64,000 nt of DNA from Mycolicibacterium lutetiense (GTDB taxonomy: Bacteria > Actinomycetota > Actinomycetes > Mycobacteriales > Mycobacteriaceae), in the NCBI RefSeq assembly GCF_017876775.1, contig NZ_JAGIOP010000002.1, forward strand, positions 2,728,001 to 2,792,000, in the 5' to 3' direction. Within the stretch, counting starts at the first letter, position 1. Every line of letters begins with the position of its first letter. The position numbers and the translations under genes were made by a program. Below the pieces are notes generated by a model. It searched no databases and was not told the origin of the DNA. It saw nothing but the letters and a program-made list of their open reading frames with translations. Shown piece by piece: positions 2,606 through 11,155 of this stretch.

Positions 2606-3631
2606 TTAACCGTTTGCCTTCGCCGCCGCGATCAGAGCGCGCAATTGGTCGGGGTTCATCCACGGTCGGGCATGGTGGATCATTCGATGACAGTTTGCGC
2701 AGATGAGAACGAGGTCTTTGAGCCGAGTCGATTTTGGGCCACTCTCGTGGAGCGGGACGACGTGATGGCACTCGATGATGCCGTCACCCTTATCGCCATA
2801 CGCCGCTCTAAAGTCGAACCCGCACGTCTCACAAGCGAGATTGCCATGCTGTGCAAGATGCTGAGCGATTTTCTTGGTCCGGAGGCTTCGGCTGCGTTCC
2901 CGGACCATGTGGCGTCGCTCGAGTAGGCGCCCCTCTGGTGCTTCGCCCTCCATCTCATCAATGTCGACGAGATCGACGTAGTCGGCAGTCAATACGCCAG
3001 AACCCACCCCGTCGCGAATGAGTTGCGCCGTTTGAATCATCGCGGCTTCGTTGTCGAGGAAATCTTGGAGCACAACACCGTCGAGTCTGTTGCCGTGGCT
3101 CAGCTTGTTGCCCTTGCCTGGAAGGTGCGCAGCAATGTTGTAGGTCTTCATCGACACGCCGTCGGGATTGCGGAACCGCACTCCACGCGCATTCGGCGGG
3201 TGAATCGGCAGGCATTGCAGCAGCGCTGAAAGATCAACTGTCTCTTGCTGGCTTGTGCCTAGACCTTTCCAGTTGTTCTGCCGGAGAGCGTCACAGGCCA
3301 GGATGAGTTCATCCCGTGTCCAGTCCGGTTCGCTGGTTGGGACGGCGAAGCCCAACTTCTTGAGCCATTTCGCTGCGTCGGTCTTTCCGCCGGACAGCTG
3401 ATCAACGTTGAGCGGTTCGAGGCCTTCATGGAATCCGTGGGCGGCTGCGAAGATCGCTTTCGAGTCGTAGTGCTTGCCTTTGTGGATGAGAAAGTAGTCC
3501 TTGGCCTCGCCGAAACCGTACTTGGCCAAGAATGGGCCGCGCGTCAGCTCGTCGAACTCGACGATTGCCTTCAGGACGTCCCCCTCGTCTACGAGTTCCT
3601 TGGCGACTACAGGCGCGGGAGGGTTTGCCAT
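2606..3631 (-). CDS. McrA-like HNH endonuclease (putative type IV restriction)
   Basis: This 341-residue protein has an N-terminal module (about residues 25-70) reading FLAKYGF..AKDYFL and YDSKAI. It resembles the head domain of the Streptomyces McrA homologue ScoMcrA. A middle region (about 105-170) reads as the DELILACDAL...RFRNPDGV segment found in several HNH restriction proteins. The C-terminal HNH nuclease has CETCGF, then ECHHVVPLHE, then ICANCHRMIHH, supplying the His and paired zinc cysteines. McrA-type enzymes cut modified foreign DNA; that this one does so is inference. It stands alone, is transcribed against the flanking cassettes, and lies in an island rich in putative defence genes. 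Confidence 0.8.
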   Translation of the reverse strand: MANPPAPVVAKELVDEGDVLKAIVEFDELTRGPFLAKYGFGEAKDYFLIHKGKHYDSKAIFAAAHGFHEGLEPLNVDQLSGGKTDAAKWLKKLGFAVPTSEPDWTRDELILACDALRQNNWKGLGTSQQETVDLSALLQCLPIHPPNARGVRFRNPDGVSMKTYNIAAHLPGKGNKLSHGNRLDGVVLQDFLDNEAAMIQTAQLIRDGVGSGVLTADYVDLVDIDEMEGEAPEGRLLERRHMVRERSRSLRTKKIAQHLAQHGNLACETCGFDFRAAYGDKGDGIIECHHVVPLHESGPKSTRLKDLVLICANCHRMIHHARPWMNPDQLRALIAAAKANG

Positions 3632-4147: not shown

Positions 4148-4861
4148 ATGTCAGAGGCAAGAGCGTTCAACCGAAACCCAAGTCCGCAGATGGCCAGCTG
4201 GTTCCTGGATCTCAACTCCGCGAAGCGGCTCGACCTGGATCCTCCATATCAGAGGCGGAGCGTTTGGAATCTTGAGTTTCGCAGATTCTTCATCGACTCA
4301 ATTATTCGAAATTATCCAACTCAAGCGATATTTATCGATACGACACTAGATCCAGACCATCCCACTATTTACAAAATTCTCGACGGGAAGCAGCGACTTA
4401 CATCGCTGATTATGTTCACCGAAAACGAGTTTACAACCCCAGAATCACTGTCTGATCTAGATCTTGACGATACTTATTACAGCGACCTACCCCGCGAAGT
4501 AAAAACCCAAATCCTTCGCTATCTATTTACAGTTGAGACGGTCACTAACGCTAGCGCTGCCGAGTTAAATCAAGCGTTCGACCGCCTAAACCGCAACGTC
4601 ATACGCCTCAACAAGCAGGAGCTGCGCCACGCGCAGTACGCCGGCGCGTTCATATCGAAGATGGAAAGACTCTCCGACGAGCCATTCTGGGAGGATATCG
4701 GCTTGGTGACGCCCGCACGACGACGGCGCATGCTTGATGTGGAATATATTTCAGAGTTGTACGTGGTCGCCGCGCAAGGCATTCAAGATGGCAAAGATTA
4801 CCTCGACCTTATCTATTCTGATTGGGACGAAGAGATCGCGAACGAGAGGCGGGCTGATGCG

Positions 4862-4869
4862 CGGTTCCG
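4862..4869. repeat. 8-bp target-site duplication, left copy
   Basis: CGGTTCCG at 4862-4869 is repeated exactly at 6327-6334, directly flanking the insertion ends. Eight bases is the size usual for ISL3-family elements. Removing one copy plus the element restores the DUF262 reading frame. Confidence 0.9.
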
Positions 4870-6326
4870 GGCTCTTCCGACTTGATGGGGGTCTGGTGTG
4901 ACCGATTGGGTTCGTGTCGGTGACTGATTGAGGGCTCGCGCCCTTGTCAACTGGGTGTTCTCTACGCATCCAGAGCAAAGGCGCGAGCATGTCTGACAAT
5001 AGTGGTTCCCTGCTGCTTGGACTCGACGGCATCACCGTGGAGTCCGTGCAAGTCGATGACGGCGATGTCCGCATCGTTGAGGTGGGCACAGCGCTCGAGT
5101 GGGTCGGGATCTGCCCGGACTGCCGAACCAGATCGTCGCGGTCGAGGGGTTGGGTCACGACTCGGCCCCGGGACATCAAGATCGGTGCGGACCGGCCGCT
5201 GATCATGTGGCGAAAGCGGAAATGGTTGTGCACCAACACCTCCTGCGAACGCAGGTCATTCACTGAGTCGACGCCGTCGATCCCGCCGCGGGCTCGGGTG
5301 ACGGTGCGAGCCAAGGCGGAGATGGCCCTGGCGGTCCTCGACGACGACCGCTCGGTCAAGGCCGTCGCCGCCGCGTATGGCTGTAGCTGGAACACCTGCC
5401 ATGACGCGGTGATCGCCACCGCGGATCCGGTCCTGGCCGGTGAACCGCCCCCGGTGCGGGTGCTGGGCATCGATGAGACCCGCCGCGGGAAGGCCAAGTG
5501 GGAGACCTGCCCGGAGACCGGGGCCCGGGCGTGGGTGGACCGCTGGGACAGCGGCCTGGTCGACATCACCGGCGCCGGCGGGTTGCTGGTCCAGGTCAAC
5601 GGGCGTGCCGCGCGGCCGGTGACCGACTGGCTGACCCAGCGCGAGCAGGCGTGGAGGGACGGGATCGAGTTCGTCGCGATCGACATGTCGGGGGCCTACG
5701 CCAAGGCCGCCCGCGAGGCGTTGCCGCACGCGAAGCTGATCGTGGATCGCTTTCATCTCGTGAAGAAGGCCAACGAGATGGTCGATCGGGTTCGCCGCCG
5801 CGTCACCCAGACCTACCGCGGACGCCGCGGGCACAAGAGCGATCCGGAGTGGATCAACCGCCGCCGGCTGCTGCGCGCCGCCGAACGGCTGACCGACGAT
5901 CAACGCCACACGCTGTTCGAGAAACTGACCTGCGCAGACCCCAACGGGGACATCGCGGCGGCCTGGATCGCCAAGGAACTGCTGCGAGATGTGCTGGCCT
6001 GCACCGACCGTGGCGGTCTGCGCTACGAGATCGGCGACGCGCTGTACCGGTTCTACACGTTCTGCGCGGCGTGCTCGGTACCCGAGATCGTCAAGCTCGC
6101 CGAAACCATCTCCGCGTGGCAGGAACCGATGATCCTGGCCATCACCACCGGGCTGTCCAACGCCCGCAGCGAGGGCTACAACAGAATCGTCAAACACGTC
6201 GGCCGAATCGCGTTCGGATTCAGAACACCGGACAACCAACGCCGCCGCGTACGGTGGGCCTGCACCCGCCAATCACGGCGAGCGCCATCCAGAACCAGGC
6301 TCCGCCCCTGCTAAGTCGGAAGAGCC
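4870..6326 (+). mobile_element. ISL3-family insertion sequence, 1,457 bp, complete
   Basis: The ends are perfect 14-bp inverted repeats: GGCTCTTCCGACTT at 4870-4883 and its complement at 6313-6326. The right repeat overlaps the last codons of the transposase. An exact 8-bp duplication, CGGTTCCG, flanks the element. It carries one intact transposase gene, so it may still be mobile. It interrupts a DUF262 gene. Intact ends and an exact duplication argue for a recent insertion. Confidence 0.92.
4989..6314 (+). CDS. ISL3-family transposase
   Basis: This DDE transposase has 441 residues from ATG 4989. The N-terminus has a zinc-finger of ISL3 type (CPDC near residue 37 with later CTNTSC). The middle has a helix-turn-helix (residues 110-135) and the first catalytic aspartate in VLGIDE. 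A second aspartate lies in FVAIDMSGAY, followed by the typical IVDRFHLVKKAN. The C-terminus has the family signature SNARSEGYNRIVKHVGRIAFGF. I chose ATG 4989 because upstream codons run into the element end. The gene appears complete and functional. Confidence 0.92.
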   Translation: MSDNSGSLLLGLDGITVESVQVDDGDVRIVEVGTALEWVGICPDCRTRSSRSRGWVTTRPRDIKIGADRPLIMWRKRKWLCTNTSCERRSFTESTPSIPPRARVTVRAKAEMALAVLDDDRSVKAVAAAYGCSWNTCHDAVIATADPVLAGEPPPVRVLGIDETRRGKAKWETCPETGARAWVDRWDSGLVDITGAGGLLVQVNGRAARPVTDWLTQREQAWRDGIEFVAIDMSGAYAKAAREALPHAKLIVDRFHLVKKANEMVDRVRRRVTQTYRGRRGHKSDPEWINRRRLLRAAERLTDDQRHTLFEKLTCADPNGDIAAAWIAKELLRDVLACTDRGGLRYEIGDALYRFYTFCAACSVPEIVKLAETISAWQEPMILAITTGLSNARSEGYNRIVKHVGRIAFGFRTPDNQRRRVRWACTRQSRRAPSRTRLRPC

Positions 6327-6334
6327 CGGTTCCG
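6327..6334. repeat. 8-bp target-site duplication, right copy
   Basis: CGGTTCCG lies directly after the right inverted repeat and is identical to the copy at 4862-4869. It marks the insertion point in the DUF262 gene. Confidence 0.9.
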
Positions 6335-6634
6335 GCACGCCCGGCAGTTCTTAGAAGCAGTCAACGTCGAATATCCATTGTCTCCCACCCGGTATAGCAA
6401 CATTGCCGACTTCTACTCGGTTTGGGCTGCAGTGATTGAGCTCAGGACAGCTTCAGAATTAGACGACCCGTTGGTGTGTGCTGCTCGTCTTGCAGAGTTC
6501 TACGTCGAACTAGTATCCCAATCGTCGGACCGCTCACGTTCGTATTTGTTGGCGGCAAGGCAGGGCTCAAATAAGGCCTTAAATAGATCGCGGCGTGCCG
6601 AGATACTGAAGGATGTATTGACCGGTAAGACGCA

Positions 6635-7600
6635 ATGATCCCGGCTGAATTACTTACTCAGTACGGACTTCGGTCTGCGCAGCTTAATTCTCTGCGGGAC
6701 TTTTTTGATAAACGTTTGAGCGCCGATCTTTCGCACCTGAAACCGATCAGAATTGATGGCCGGGTCAAAGAACCTTCGAGCATCCTGCAGAAGCTCGCGA
6801 CGGGAAAATACGAAGGTGTCGCTAAGCTGCAAGATCTTGTTGGAATGACGGTCGTTCTGCTCCATCGGCGGGATGTCGGGTCGGCCATTGATGTGGTGAA
6901 GTCCTCTAGCTTGATAATTGTTGGAGAGTCGACGAGAGAAGTAGAGGCTACGGACTTTCGTTACAGGGAACCGAAGCTGTACATCCAGCCGCCCGCCGAC
7001 TTCCTTGATAGAAATCCAGAATTGAACGACTTCGTGGTCGAAGTGCAATTCACGTCAGCCCTCCAACATGCTCTAGATATGACTACTCACGATTTCGACT
7101 ATAAGGGCAAGTCATATTCATGGCGCAATTTTCGCCTCGTCGCAGAGCTTCGCGGCATGCTGGAATTGGTCGACAACATGATCGATGATATCGACAATGT
7201 CGAATTTGCGCGTTCTGAGGTAATAATTCCGCCGGCGAGGATCGTCTACGCTTCCGCCATCCTCGAAGTGCTTACCGCGAGATTCGAAGATGAACGGTTG
7301 CCGTCAGATCGCCGGCGATTTGCTGACACGGTGGCGGGATGGTGTCGCGCCATTGATATTGACCCTGACAGCCTTGCTGAACTGCTAGGCCGGCAAGAAC
7401 GGTTCTTGCGCGCTGAGTCGTTAGACCCGACGAGCGCGGTGCTCGGCGCACTCCTAACGGAGCATTCGTCCACGCTCACCGACAAGTTTGAGGGCCACTT
7501 CGTGGTGGGCAGCGAGCTTGAGTCATTATGTCCCGAAGCAGGGTCGATCGCGCCCGACAAGCGAGTCCGCCTCGACTGGCAAGACCGATTGACCAGTTAA
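6635..7600 (+). CDS. RelA/SpoT-like nucleotidyltransferase domain protein
   Basis: This 321-residue protein starts at the ATG inside the DUF262 stop codon. Residues 40-160 match the (p)ppGpp-synthetase fold by motif: RVKEPSS (43-49, the R-x-K-x-x-x-S pyrophosphate loop), LQDLVG (65-70), VEVQF (135-139, with the metal-binding Glu) and HDFDYK (152-157). The Arg that normally follows D-L-x-G-x is Thr here (DLVGMT). The C-terminal 160 residues are helical and unrecognised; no HD hydrolase, TGS or ACT domain is visible. Small RelA/SpoT proteins can be alarmone synthetases, toxSAS toxins or CapRel-like antiphage sensors. Pairing with DUF262 suggests defence (inference). AT-rich codon use fits horizontal gain. 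Confidence 0.78.
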   Translation: MIPAELLTQYGLRSAQLNSLRDFFDKRLSADLSHLKPIRIDGRVKEPSSILQKLATGKYEGVAKLQDLVGMTVVLLHRRDVGSAIDVVKSSSLIIVGESTREVEATDFRYREPKLYIQPPADFLDRNPELNDFVVEVQFTSALQHALDMTTHDFDYKGKSYSWRNFRLVAELRGMLELVDNMIDDIDNVEFARSEVIIPPARIVYASAILEVLTARFEDERLPSDRRRFADTVAGWCRAIDIDPDSLAELLGRQERFLRAESLDPTSAVLGALLTEHSSTLTDKFEGHFVVGSELESLCPEAGSIAPDKRVRLDWQDRLTS

Positions 7601-7706: not shown

Positions 7707-8756
7707 TTATTCCGAGTCGTCGTACCGGCCGATGGCTGCATCCTCAGCAGCACTAATTTCGTCCGGTGTAGCTTCGTCCTCGTCCCACTGCGTCTCTCCT
7801 ATCTGTTCGAGGGGGAGTAGGTCAACGCTCAGCCGGAGACCGCAGACGGAGCATTCGAATTCCTGGGGTTCGCGGAACACTTCAACGAACGGAATTCCGG
7901 GCCTGCCGTTGTCGTCATACTCGACCTCGATCGTGCTTCGGTGGACCGAGTACTCGAGCCATCCTTCGTATTTGCAGACGGGGCATTTCTGGCGCGTCCA
8001 TGCGCCATCGTCGCCGTAGTACCCGGCGGGCGCTCGCTCTGCCCACTCAGATAGGGCGTCGTGATCCAAGCCCCGGCCCTGGAGTCTGTCCAATTCCCGA
8101 CGCGCAGCTGCCTTGAGCTGCTCCAGCATCAATCGCTTAGCTTCGGCCTGTGCTTTTAGACGTTCGTCGACTTGGGTTAGAAAGTCCTCGCCCCAGTAGG
8201 AGGTGCGATTCAGCGACGGATCGGACTCATTGATTGTCGCGATGACGTGTTCAGACAGGGCGACCATTGTGGTGAGGGCAGGTTCGAATGTCGTGAGGTC
8301 GACGCAGCCTATGTGTGTCGCAAGGTTCCGAATGTCGAAGACGACGGAGTCGCGTTCGGAGTTGTAATCGAATGGATCGCACTGCTTCAGAAGGGTCAAG
8401 CATTCGGTGGCCGATCTCGTCTTCACCTTCGCGGGGACGAGTTCGCCGACGCCGACGAACTGCAACAGATGCTTCGGCTGCCTGTCCTCGGCCAGTAGCA
8501 CAGGGCTGATGCTTGCGACTGCGGCTTTAGCAAGCAGCTCGACCGATGTACCGATTGACACAGCACGATCCAAGATAGAGAGATCATCGGATGCGCTTGC
8601 TAGTGCCCGTCGAGCGTGCAGGGACGCAACCCGAAATAGATACTTGGGTAGTTCGCTCTGCGACACAGCTCGGCCAATACCGGGCCATTGCGGCGGCGTG
8701 ACGGTCGGCATGCGGACAACGCTATTCCACTCGGTGGGTGGCCCCAACACCGACAT
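7707..8756 (-). CDS. HEPN-like protein with C-terminal zinc ribbon (hypothetical)
   Basis: This is a 349-residue protein if started at ATG 8756. In-frame TTG 8849, ATG 8837 and ATG 8711 are alternatives, none with a good ribosome site. The N-terminal 160 residues are mostly helical. They contain R-N-L-A-T-H (about 143-148), which fits the R-x4-H catalytic motif of HEPN ribonucleases, preceded by an acidic helical segment. A coiled stretch follows (about 180-230). The C-terminus has two CxxC pairs, CPVC and CSVC, about 50 residues apart, and an acidic tail. It converges with the RelA-like gene across 106 bp. A defence RNase is possible; homology is not shown. Confidence 0.55.
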   Translation of the reverse strand: MSVLGPPTEWNSVVRMPTVTPPQWPGIGRAVSQSELPKYLFRVASLHARRALASASDDLSILDRAVSIGTSVELLAKAAVASISPVLLAEDRQPKHLLQFVGVGELVPAKVKTRSATECLTLLKQCDPFDYNSERDSVVFDIRNLATHIGCVDLTTFEPALTTMVALSEHVIATINESDPSLNRTSYWGEDFLTQVDERLKAQAEAKRLMLEQLKAAARRELDRLQGRGLDHDALSEWAERAPAGYYGDDGAWTRQKCPVCKYEGWLEYSVHRSTIEVEYDDNGRPGIPFVEVFREPQEFECSVCGLRLSVDLLPLEQIGETQWDEDEATPDEISAAEDAAIGRYDDSE

Positions 8757-8951
8757 TCGCCTGGACGCGACGTTCACCGGGCGCGACCAGAACGCGGCGG
8801 GCCGAGTGTTTGCGGGTACTCCGTACTTTCCCTGCATAAACACCCGCAATCTGGCGGGAACTTACCCGCATCCACCCGTACTAGTTACTCACGTGATCCA
8901 TTGCAGTACAGCACTTCAGCGAACGGCAGTACCCTCTGACAGACCGGCCGG

Positions 8952-8994
8952 CCCCAAGCTGAACACGCGGGTTCGATTCCCGTCATCTGCTCCA
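8952..8994 (+). other. 3' fragment of a tRNA-Gly gene (candidate att site)
   Basis: CCCCAAGCTGAAC at 8952 continues into a variable region, a T-arm (CGGGTTCGATTCCCG) and an acceptor strand with encoded CCA (CATCTGCTCCA). This is the 3' half of an actinobacterial tRNA-Gly with a CCC-type anticodon loop. No matching acceptor and D-arm lies at the right distance, although a degenerate GCAG at 8904 might be a relic of one. A tRNA 3' end without its 5' half is what remains at the far end of an element integrated in a tRNA gene. This suggests the island lies to the left. Confidence 0.7.
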
Positions 8995-9084: not shown

Positions 9085-10488
9085 TTGCCGGAAATTACAA
9101 GCGTGTCAGTAACGCGTGGGATACTCGACACCGTGGCTGACCAGTGGGACCGGCGATTCGATGACCACCCCGTGTGGGGCGCGGTCGTCACGCTGAAGGA
9201 CCATCTGTCCAAAATCGACTTGCCATCCGATCCGCAACTCGCTGAGTCCTACAGGCGCCTGGAGCGGCTGGTTGCGACTCTCGATGCTTATCGCGAAGCC
9301 GAGAACAATAAAGACCTGTTCACGAACACAATGCTCCAGTCGGTGTACGACGCCATGGTGCAGTACGTCCTGAATATGCTTTCGCAGTATGTGCAGGATC
9401 CCGCGACCTACGCGGGATCCCTCACGTCGGCCGCCGACAACGTCGACACTGTGCATGAGCAACTCGCTAGGTGGCCCGCGCTCTCGCTGCGCGGACGCGC
9501 GGTCGCCGCAGGGCAAGCAGCGGGGCAGTACGAGGACGCCTCTAAAGAGGCACTCGCCAGGTTCAGCGTGCAGGTGGAGGAGATCGGCGAGAAGGTCACC
9601 GGTCTGCGGGCGCGCATCGACGACGAAGTCGAGCAGGTGCAGCAAGTACGTTCCGAGGCGATTCAGGAACTCCAAACAAATGTCGATACCCACCTGACGT
9701 CAGTGAAGGAACAGGTAGTTGAGATCGAGAATGCGGTCAGCGGGCATCTGAAAACCCTCGAAAACCTCACGGACAAAACAGAAGAAAGCCTCAAGGATCG
9801 GCTTGCGGAATTCGGCGAATGGTCACGGACTGAGGCGGCCGACAGCATCCGAGAGGCAATCAACGAACTCCGCGAGGATACGGCGAAGTCGGTCGCGGAG
9901 ACCAAGGCGGCCCTGGAGGAGACAAAGCGCCTCCACAACGAGACGGCCGAACTCGAGAAGCAAACCCGCAACACCGCTGAGGCTCTCGCCCAACGTGCCG
10001 TCGCCGACGATTACCAGAAGAACGCGCGCAACAAGGCTTTTGCGGGATGGGTCTGGGACGTACTCGGGTTCGTGGTAGGCGCTGTGCCGCTTGGATTCGT
10101 TCTCTATCACTTCCTAACCGTGACGGACAATACCGACAATCTCGCAGCTCTGACTGTGAGCCGGGTCGGCGTCTCCGCAGCCGCAGTCGGTGTCGCCGCG
10201 CTGTGCTTCCATCGGGGTAGCCAGAACCACAAGGAGTCGCGCATCGCGAAGCGGACAGACCTGCGCGTCCGTACTGTTCGCCCGTTCCTCGCGAATCTCG
10301 AGCCCGACGTGCGTGATGCGGTGATCGAGGGCATGGCGGACCAGCTCTATTTGCAAGGCAAGATGGAGACGCTTGGCCCGCAGGAAGGCGCGGAGGCCGA
10401 AGAGAATCTGCTAGCACGGTATTTGAAGGACCGCAGACTCCGAACAGCAATAACCGATGGCGATACCGAAGGCAAGGCCGAGACCTAA
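9085..10488 (+). CDS. Coiled-coil protein with two C-terminal membrane segments
   Basis: This predicted protein has 467 residues from TTG 9085; GTG 9103, with GGAAA 8 bases upstream, is an alternative start. Residues about 165-310 are rich in Glu, Lys, Gln and Ala with heptad-like spacing and few prolines, a long coiled coil. Two hydrophobic segments follow at about 318-345 and 353-377, then a charged cytoplasmic tail. The arrangement suggests a membrane-anchored coiled-coil sensor or scaffold. I recognise no catalytic domain. It sits between the tRNA-Gly fragment and an integrase remnant, and its stop overlaps the integrase stop by 3 bp in convergent orientation. It is probably accessory. 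Confidence 0.65.
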   Translation: MPEITSVSVTRGILDTVADQWDRRFDDHPVWGAVVTLKDHLSKIDLPSDPQLAESYRRLERLVATLDAYREAENNKDLFTNTMLQSVYDAMVQYVLNMLSQYVQDPATYAGSLTSAADNVDTVHEQLARWPALSLRGRAVAAGQAAGQYEDASKEALARFSVQVEEIGEKVTGLRARIDDEVEQVQQVRSEAIQELQTNVDTHLTSVKEQVVEIENAVSGHLKTLENLTDKTEESLKDRLAEFGEWSRTEAADSIREAINELREDTAKSVAETKAALEETKRLHNETAELEKQTRNTAEALAQRAVADDYQKNARNKAFAGWVWDVLGFVVGAVPLGFVLYHFLTVTDNTDNLAALTVSRVGVSAAAVGVAALCFHRGSQNHKESRIAKRTDLRVRTVRPFLANLEPDVRDAVIEGMADQLYLQGKMETLGPQEGAEAEENLLARYLKDRRLRTAITDGDTEGKAET

Positions 10489-10830
10489 CCTCGAAGCTGA
10501 ATCACGTTTCCTGCGTACTGCTTTGACATCGCACCTAGCGCGTCCATCGCGTCGGCGTGGTCGTCTTCGAAGAGGTGCGCATAGATCGTCAGCGTCGTGG
10601 TGACCTTGGTGTAGCCCATGAACCGCGCGATCTCCAACGGTGGAATCCCAGCCGCCACACAAACTGGCGTACGTGTGCCGTAACGAGTGGGACTTCAGCT
10701 CCGGCGAGAGCTTGGCCGTTGGTGTAGCACGTTGGCGCGGAGGACAGTTGGCCGATACACCGCCTTGTAGAAGGTCATGTGCCGCAACGGCTCCTCCCAG
10801 GTCAGCCAGCCTTGTTGCCGGCCCATTCGG
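10485..10830 (-). pseudogene. Tyrosine integrase, decayed C-terminal fragment
   Basis: Read on the minus strand in three frames, the pieces are WEEPLRHMTFYKAVYRP..LRAN, then LSPELKSHSLRHTYASL, then AGIPPLEIARFMGYTKVTTTLTIYAHLF ending at TAG 10485-10487. Together they form the catalytic domain of a mycobacterial phage-type integrase: the R-H-x-x-Y box, the GYTKVTTT segment and the nucleophile Tyr in IYAHLF. Frame changes fall near 10725 and 10672; the second looks like a 2-base loss in a GTGTG run. The N-terminal DNA-binding domain is absent or unrecognisable. It is a dead integrase beside the tRNA-Gly fragment. Confidence 0.82.
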
Positions 10831-10906
10831 TGAACTAACCCGACAGATAGCCAAACGGCGTAGCATTGTTGCTTGTCGGGGCCATAATCGGCCGGAGGTG
10901 TCGACC

Positions 10907-11155
10907 ATGTTTGACGCGACCCGCTCACTCGTCGTTGCTGGCACAGCAACATTGATGCTGGGCTTCAGCACCCCATTCGCCTATGCCGACCCGCCGGCAC
11001 CCGGCTCAGCCTGCGGCCCCGACAAGGTGATCACGTCCGTCAACACCTGTGAGCCGCTCAACTCGTCGTGCACGGGGTATGACGGCATGGTGATTGGCCG
11101 GGTGGCCGCTGACGGCCGGTGCGTGATTCCGGGACTCGACGGCACTCGGTGGTAG
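10907..11155 (+). CDS. Small secreted protein
   Basis: This protein has 82 residues from ATG 10907, with a strong ribosome site GGAGG 8 bases upstream. The N-terminal 27 residues form a Sec signal peptide with a hydrophobic core (LVVAGTATLMLGF) and an A-Y-A cleavage site before DPPAPG. The mature part is about 55 residues with four cysteines, probably two disulfides, as in many small exported mycobacterial proteins. The function is unknown. It marks the return to ordinary chromosome after the integrase remnant. Confidence 0.75.
   Translation: MFDATRSLVVAGTATLMLGFSTPFAYADPPAPGSACGPDKVITSVNTCEPLNSSCTGYDGMVIGRVAADGRCVIPGLDGTRW

Follow-up and report, generated by a model that had tools for sequence, protein, structure and literature searches.

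When a gene for a DUF262 protein is found to overlap a gene for a protein of the RelA/SpoT type, the question arises what two such proteins would do together. The question is posed by a stretch of 64,000 nucleotides of the genome of Mycolicibacterium lutetiense (contig NZ_JAGIOP010000002.1, positions 2,728,001 to 2,792,000; the whole stretch is hereafter called the window), where the following parts of the pair are found, the first gene being split by an insertion sequence (IS):

4148..4869, plus strand: 5' part of the DUF262/GmrSD_N gene, 240 codons up to the insertion (PF03235, PADLOC, homologues)
6327..6638, plus strand: 3' part of the same gene, encoding a C-terminal helical domain (family-profile match), ending inside an ATGA overlap
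6635..7600, plus strand: intact gene for a RelA/SpoT-fold nucleotidyltransferase of 321 amino acids (PF04607, predicted fold, alignment)

The DUF262-RelA pairing recurs beyond this genome, and the answer that we favour is that the pair probably constitutes a two-gene defence module, in which the DUF262 protein would be a sensor driven by nucleoside triphosphates (NTPs) and the RelA-fold protein an effector of growth arrest.

An earlier, sequence-only reading of this DNA had looked to recurrence of the pair in other genomes, and recurrence is what is found, in size-matched contigs, in co-variation and directly in DNA. A homology search yielded 69 homologues of the RelA-like protein besides itself and 1424 homologues of the window DUF262 piece at E 1e-20 or better, 120 of the latter being used for a linkage test. 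In this test, at least 36 of 70 RelA clusters have a longest contig that is equal in size, to the base, to that of a listed DUF262 cluster; among contigs of at least 2500 bases, the window's excluded, 35 of 49 RelA clusters have a size-matched DUF262 contig among the matches listed, and shifting the contig sizes by 1 to 3 bases, as a control, leaves 0 or 1 matches. Contig-size matching is an indirect test of linkage, and the count obtained with 120 DUF262 homologues is probably a lower bound. The DUF262 and RelA distance matrices correlate across the 36 presumed pairs with a Mantel r of 0.85, a value reached in 0 of 5000 permutations. In Microbacterium aurum, the pair is encoded under consecutive locus tags (BOH66_15325 and 15330).

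Direct inspection of genomes leads to the same picture. Profile searches for the RelA-like protein above 85 bits retrieved, in addition to the present genome (G000), which appeared each time, G145 and G188 from a family sample of 401 genomes, G416 from a class sample of 394 and, with profile A5, G958 from a phylum sample of 336, the three samples overlapping one another. All four other genomes have a DUF262 neighbour on the same strand, as seen in the DNA, the DUF262 gene of G416 being cut by the contig end; the G188 protein is identical to P0191 from Tsukamurella. At 58 RelA loci besides the window's own, with flanks of mostly 1.5 kb, the DUF262 profile matched at 3 (L004, L005, L033) and not at the other 55, and a RelA-like gene of a member of the Bacteroidaceae (L002, 81 bits) has no DUF262 gene of this profile within its 20 kb. 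Plasmid records with a RelA match number five, all from Rhizobium and all with a nearby DUF262 match on the same strand. An 11-base overlap joins the two genes on the plasmid of Rhizobium sp. 007; the remaining four plasmids are of the pTi type, and both that were examined, pTi K1/93 and pTi 1078, carry an IS5 element inside the RelA-like gene (L070, L078). Insertions into two such pairs deserve mention and are no proof of a cost. A search of 50,697 phage records (E 1e-5) gave no match to the RelA protein, and viral contigs gave none with the RelA alignment A1 or with the DUF262 proteins P0074 and P0152.

What kind of enzyme is the RelA-like partner? The open reading frame (ORF) matches PF04607 at 32.9 bits (Pfam cut-off 27), and its start at 6635 is joined to the DUF262 end at 6638 by an ATGA overlap that can be read directly in the DNA, just as the sequence-only reading had described for this 321-residue protein. 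In the predicted model the fold is that of a nucleotidyltransferase of the RelA or small alarmone synthetase (SAS) type, the outcome on which the earlier proposal depended: a SYNTH-type domain at about residues 1-190, with the R-x-K..S..K pattern and the catalytic Asp and Glu of the RelA/SpoT superfamily, is followed by a conserved all-helical C-terminal domain at about 201-304. Residues 201-304 are modelled as helices, with block values of the predicted local distance difference test mostly at 88-98, and the pseudo-zinc-finger antitoxin domain that forms the C-terminus of CapRel is lacking in the model. The catalytic residues are kept across the paired group. The substrate site is another matter: arginine at position 72 (G-x-R) is found in 0 of 26 paired proteins versus 25 of 25 unpaired Rel/SAS proteins, and of the G-loop G-Y-x-S, glycine at position 109 occurs in 0 of 26 versus 24 of 25 and serine at position 112 in 0 of 26 versus 25 of 25, so that two features expected of a (p)ppGpp synthetase, the G-x-R arginine and the G-loop, are missing from the paired group. 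Since residues common to unpaired Rel/SAS proteins have been lost group-wide, alarmone synthesis by the RelA-like protein appears less likely. Against the 25 unpaired proteins, the paired ones cluster together with a support of 95 by the Shimodaira-Hasegawa-like approximate likelihood ratio test, the only support computed for this tree, which was built by a quick method and has long branches for L056, L006 and L002. The sole PADLOC model that touches these proteins, PDC-S33 (window, 23 bits; Rhizobium 007, 24; G145, 30), covers the synthetase domain only and is no marker of the pair, because its score is higher for the unpaired protein of L002 (57 bits).

The DUF262 gene has to be considered in two pieces, which were analysed apart, owing to the element that separates them:

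4870..6326, plus strand: insertion sequence of the ISL3 family, 1457 bp long, which interrupts the DUF262 gene (transposase families, target duplication)
4944-6314: ISL3-family transposase (family matches)
4862..4869 (left copy) and 6327-6334 (second copy): 8-bp target-site duplication CGGTTCCG (sequence repeat)

For the 5' part, scanned over 4148-4867, the PF03235 match reaches 72 bits (Pfam cut-off 33.2); this part carries a ParB/Srx-type NTPase domain with the motifs PPYQRRSVW and DGKQR. Its best PADLOC model is NsnA (100 bits), with PD-T4-2_A at 63 bits; NsnABC is the Menshen gene set. A separate match of the family profile (100 bits, profile positions 238-339) covers the 3' part at G000 C2:2734324-2734629. 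Since the intact environmental homologue P0071 has 341 amino acids and is 94% identical to the 5' piece, the uninterrupted protein would comprise about 341 residues, the length that the sequence-only reading had obtained by removing the IS. That both genes are AT-rich, as had also been stated, is borne out by GC contents of 0.506 for the DUF262 5' part and 0.537 for the RelA-like gene versus 0.667 for window positions 11001-64000. The insertion is recent, because the host genome contains 11 copies of this transposase that are 100% identical and an 8-bp duplication accompanies 6 of 8 fetched copies, the window copy included. With these identical copies, the element at 4870-6326 is an IS that still moves or did so until very recently. 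The window copy of the pair, broken by it, is probably inactive.

Among described systems, several offer partial likenesses. PD-T4-2, Menshen and Dazbog are given as DUF262 systems in PMC10952713, where BrxU and SspE are described as using NTP through their DUF262 domains, which turns the nuclease on in SspE; such use is also proposed there for GmrSD. PD-T4-2 combines DUF262 with HEPN (PMC10952713, as far as available), its defence being reported without its domains in the portion of PMC9519451 at hand; the window pair resembles it in having a DUF262 gene with an adjacent small effector and differs in that the partner is not a HEPN protein but a PF04607 nucleotidyltransferase of RelA/SpoT fold. 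Menshen, which combines DUF262 with a predicted OLD nuclease (same source and part), supplies the best PADLOC model; however, the neighbouring window proteins scanned contain no OLD/TOPRIM family and no third gene is seen, the pair consisting of two overlapping genes. With GmrSD, BrxU, SspE and DndI the window protein shares the DUF262 fold of ParB/Srx NTPase type and the D-G-x-Q-R motif. As in GmrSD, DUF262 stands at the N-terminus, but the DUF1524 HNH nuclease domain has no Pfam match either in P0071 or in the RelA-like partner, and the RelA-type partner is a separate protein. The toxSAS and CapRel proteins have the SYNTH fold and, as is proposed for the window pair, are used as growth-arrest effectors, whereas here the C-terminal domain is predicted to be all-helical rather than a pseudo-zinc-finger, the partner is DUF262, and the G-x-R arginine and the G-loop Gly and Ser are absent in the group. 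Hence the architecture of DUF262 plus effector is already known, and what is new is the RelA effector. The earlier statement that no described system with exactly this pair was known holds for the literature searched, most subscription papers being outside its scope: no paper was found that joins DUF262 with an alarmone, or that contains both Pfam accessions; a broader search gave no description of the pair among the matches listed, as far as their text was available, with a mention of the neighbourhood in a toxSAS survey being possible; and none is given in the available parts of PMC5512222, PMC9712102, PMC11559606 and PMC4619093.

A defence function, a direction of control, a trigger and a substrate or product can be inferred for the pair as follows. 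The DUF262 protein, an NTPase of predicted ParB/Srx fold with the DGxQR motif and a helical domain, devoid of the DUF1524 nuclease of GmrSD, would detect infection as altered DNA, as DNA breakage or as a disturbance of a neighbouring restriction-modification (R-M) system. Detection would be coupled to binding or hydrolysis of NTP, upon which DUF262 would release or activate the RelA/SpoT-fold effector encoded by the second, probably translationally coupled gene. The effector may then move pyrophosphate onto an acceptor that the cell cannot do without, most probably the 3' end of tRNA, as toxSAS enzymes do, or else a nucleotide, and growth would be halted before the phage multiplies. By analogy, the simplest reading is that DUF262 switches on a separate RelA-type effector here, as the DUF262 domain of SspE does its nuclease. 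As to the function put forward in the sequence-only reading, sensing by DUF262 and growth arrest by the RelA-like protein remain plausible, backed by the partner exchange and R-M linkage considered below, while the alarmone synthesis included there has become less likely with the group-wide loss of substrate-site residues.

The surroundings of the pair invite a narrower reading, namely, that the pair watches the adjacent R-M system, or its DNA ends, and triggers the RelA-type effector once restriction has been blocked or swamped, like PrrC for EcoprrI. A methylase, restriction enzyme or Vsr neighbour is present in 5 of 6 contexts outside the window, with the pTi plasmids counted once, and the R-M types are unrelated to each other. 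Specifically, G188 has the order NaeI-type restriction enzyme, C5 methylase, pair; in G145 an Eco57I-type methylase and a BsuBI/PstI enzyme begin some 0.5 kb away from where DUF262 starts; in G958 Vsr adjoins DUF262 and is followed by an ORF that has no assignment, a C5 methylase and, judged by eye, a second methylase-like ORF. An N6 methylase and a BsuBI/PstI enzyme lie immediately upstream of the pair on pTi K1/93 and, by annotation, in the same arrangement on pTi 1078, with an IS701 transposase in between; on the Rhizobium 007 plasmid an N6 methylase is immediately downstream, with no restriction enzyme annotated. A control scan of 54 unpaired RelA/SAS loci, with 105 neighbours in all, showed neither a methylase nor a restriction family among the 25 listed of 53 Pfam families. 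PrrC and PARIS provide a precedent (PMC12707154, in the part available), and the proposed analogy lies in a translation-targeting effector that adjoins R-M genes; the proteins, however, are unrelated, and the R-M systems are of type II rather than type I. In the window, the neighbour is not an R-M pair but the following gene:

2606..3631, minus strand: HNH endonuclease similar to restriction enzymes of type IV, McrA-like (Pfam, PADLOC)

The McrA-like character of this gene, which had been recognized earlier, agrees with its scores (PF01844, 33.6 bits; PADLOC type IV restriction endonuclease models, 52 and 31 bits). Plain clustering of defence genes would, moreover, look alike, and we regard this guarding of R-M systems as possible but doubtful.

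Partners of related DUF262 genes bear on the next alternative. In the family sample, DUF262 of this profile (E 1e-25) occurs in 12 of 401 genomes: three loci (L093, L098, L099) have a downstream protein with sub-threshold HEPN similarity, two (L094, L096) a downstream protein matching no family, three (L092, L095, L097) an upstream protein of 232-269 amino acids with sub-threshold NTP_transf_2 similarity, and one (L100) no assigned partner. In PMC3710099, HEPN families are reported to share operons with genes for ParB and for DNA methylases. Nine of the 14 plasmid records that contain a DUF262 match were examined, showing RelA in three (007, K1/93, 1078), a kinase in three and neither in three (Sphingopyxis, Sulfurovum, Glutamicibacter); two of the remaining five have a RelA match. 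On two plasmids of Asticcacaulis and one of Pseudanabaena (L071, L073, L077) the DUF262 gene overlaps a protein-kinase gene (Pkinase, 64 bits, in the one scanned). As the neighbours in the 12 genomes are mixed, RelA is one of several partners of the wider DUF262 family. The three kinase loci also have genes for FtsK-like, PAPS-reductase or ATP-binding proteins nearby and may represent another two-gene module.

Two overlapping genes, a toxSAS-like fold and mobile contexts could also be expected of a toxin-antitoxin system, with a constitutively toxic RelA-like protein of the toxSAS kind and DUF262 as its antitoxin, kept for the stability of plasmids and islands. We consider this unlikely. DUF262 has an NTPase-type fold known from a sensor or regulator in SspE and BrxU, and the partners of its relatives are kinases or weakly HEPN-like proteins. 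Furthermore, in a viable cell, the window DUF262 gene is split and the RelA-like gene intact, which disfavours the idea that DUF262 is indispensable as the antitoxin of a partner that is always toxic. As DUF262 was lost recently while its RelA neighbour stayed whole, an activator role of DUF262 fits better than that of an antitoxin, with the caveat that the IS may silence the RelA-like gene. Still less probable is a purely signalling pair, in which the RelA-like protein would be a (p)ppGpp or (p)ppApp synthetase regulated by DUF262, with no role in defence: its fold and catalytic residues are those of SAS enzymes, but the substrate-site residues are lost as described, the distribution is patchy and accessory, and the neighbourhood is one of R-M genes.

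Several observations weigh against the defence-module reading and temper our preference for it. Foldseek matches the predicted DUF262 model to the folds of SspE and BrxU with weak E-values (4e-3). RelA stands beside DUF262 in 3 of the 12 family-sample genomes (G000, G145, G188), and the HEPN and nucleotidyltransferase labels of other DUF262 partners lie below the Pfam cut-offs. When contigs of 2500 bases or more are counted, 14 of 49 RelA clusters have no size match among the matches listed; of the DUF262 proteins at 60-64% identity, which include those of Streptomyces, Micromonospora and Kitasatospora, 1 of 39 is size-matched to a RelA contig among the matches listed, and a search for the partner of this group in two genus samples gave 0 of 12 and 0 of 16. 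The 85-bit line between paired and unpaired RelA proteins was drawn post hoc, with the unpaired G865 scoring 84.6 bits (A5) and 62.5 bits (A1). No R-M gene was seen in G416, the ORF list and one scanned neighbour being covered, which also speaks against a guarding of R-M systems. The split window copy, discussed with the antitoxin, is counted here as well.

The window copy itself belongs to a larger segment, of which two more features are to be listed:

7707..8849, minus strand: 380-amino-acid protein that has no family match, island neighbour (Pfam, PADLOC, PHROGs)
8965..8987, plus strand: 23-bp perfect repeat of the 3' part of tRNA-Gly(CCC), putative right attachment site (repeat match)

The tRNA-Gly(CCC) gene is located about 640 bp to the left of the window (L079:19285-19358), and just inside the left repeat there is a 61-amino-acid fragment of a tyrosine integrase (L088:441-626, minus strand; PF00589 at 18 bits, below the cut-off; PHROG integrases). 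The repeats frame an integrative island, now degenerate and some 9.6 kb long, with the HNH gene, the DUF262-RelA pair and the gene at 7707-8849. For the latter, the HEPN-like label of the sequence-only reading had to be abandoned, as no HEPN family was found in Pfam and nothing in PADLOC or PHROGs. The IS and the degenerate integrase fragment beside tRNA-Gly might suggest a decayed remnant that has no present function, a reading that is perhaps true of the window copy and improbable for the pair, which is intact and conserved elsewhere. Just past the right repeat, positions 9085-10488 encode a 467-amino-acid coiled-coil protein with weak ZorA-like matches (at most 24 bits), and an ORF at 10411-10971 (minus strand) shows by eye a tyrosine-recombinase-like HSLRHTYASL stretch and no PHROG match.

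A bolder version of the defence-module reading can be envisaged, which we put forward as a speculation that is rather unlikely in its entirety: a plug-in immunity, where one DUF262 NTPase sensor would be combined with interchangeable growth-arrest enzymes, such as a RelA-fold transferase, a HEPN RNase or a protein kinase, as a second line behind type II R-M. The RelA branch would then be a new class of enzymes, with altered donor and acceptor pockets and a transfer chemistry unlike that of the (p)ppGpp, (p)ppApp and known tRNA-pyrophosphorylating enzymes. If the defence function of the pair is real, a RelA-fold enzyme would join the effectors under DUF262 control, and chemistry of the alarmone type would be tied to R-M defence in actinobacteria and rhizobia; the pair would also offer a small two-gene system in which swaps of the effector could probe what DUF262 NTPases sense.

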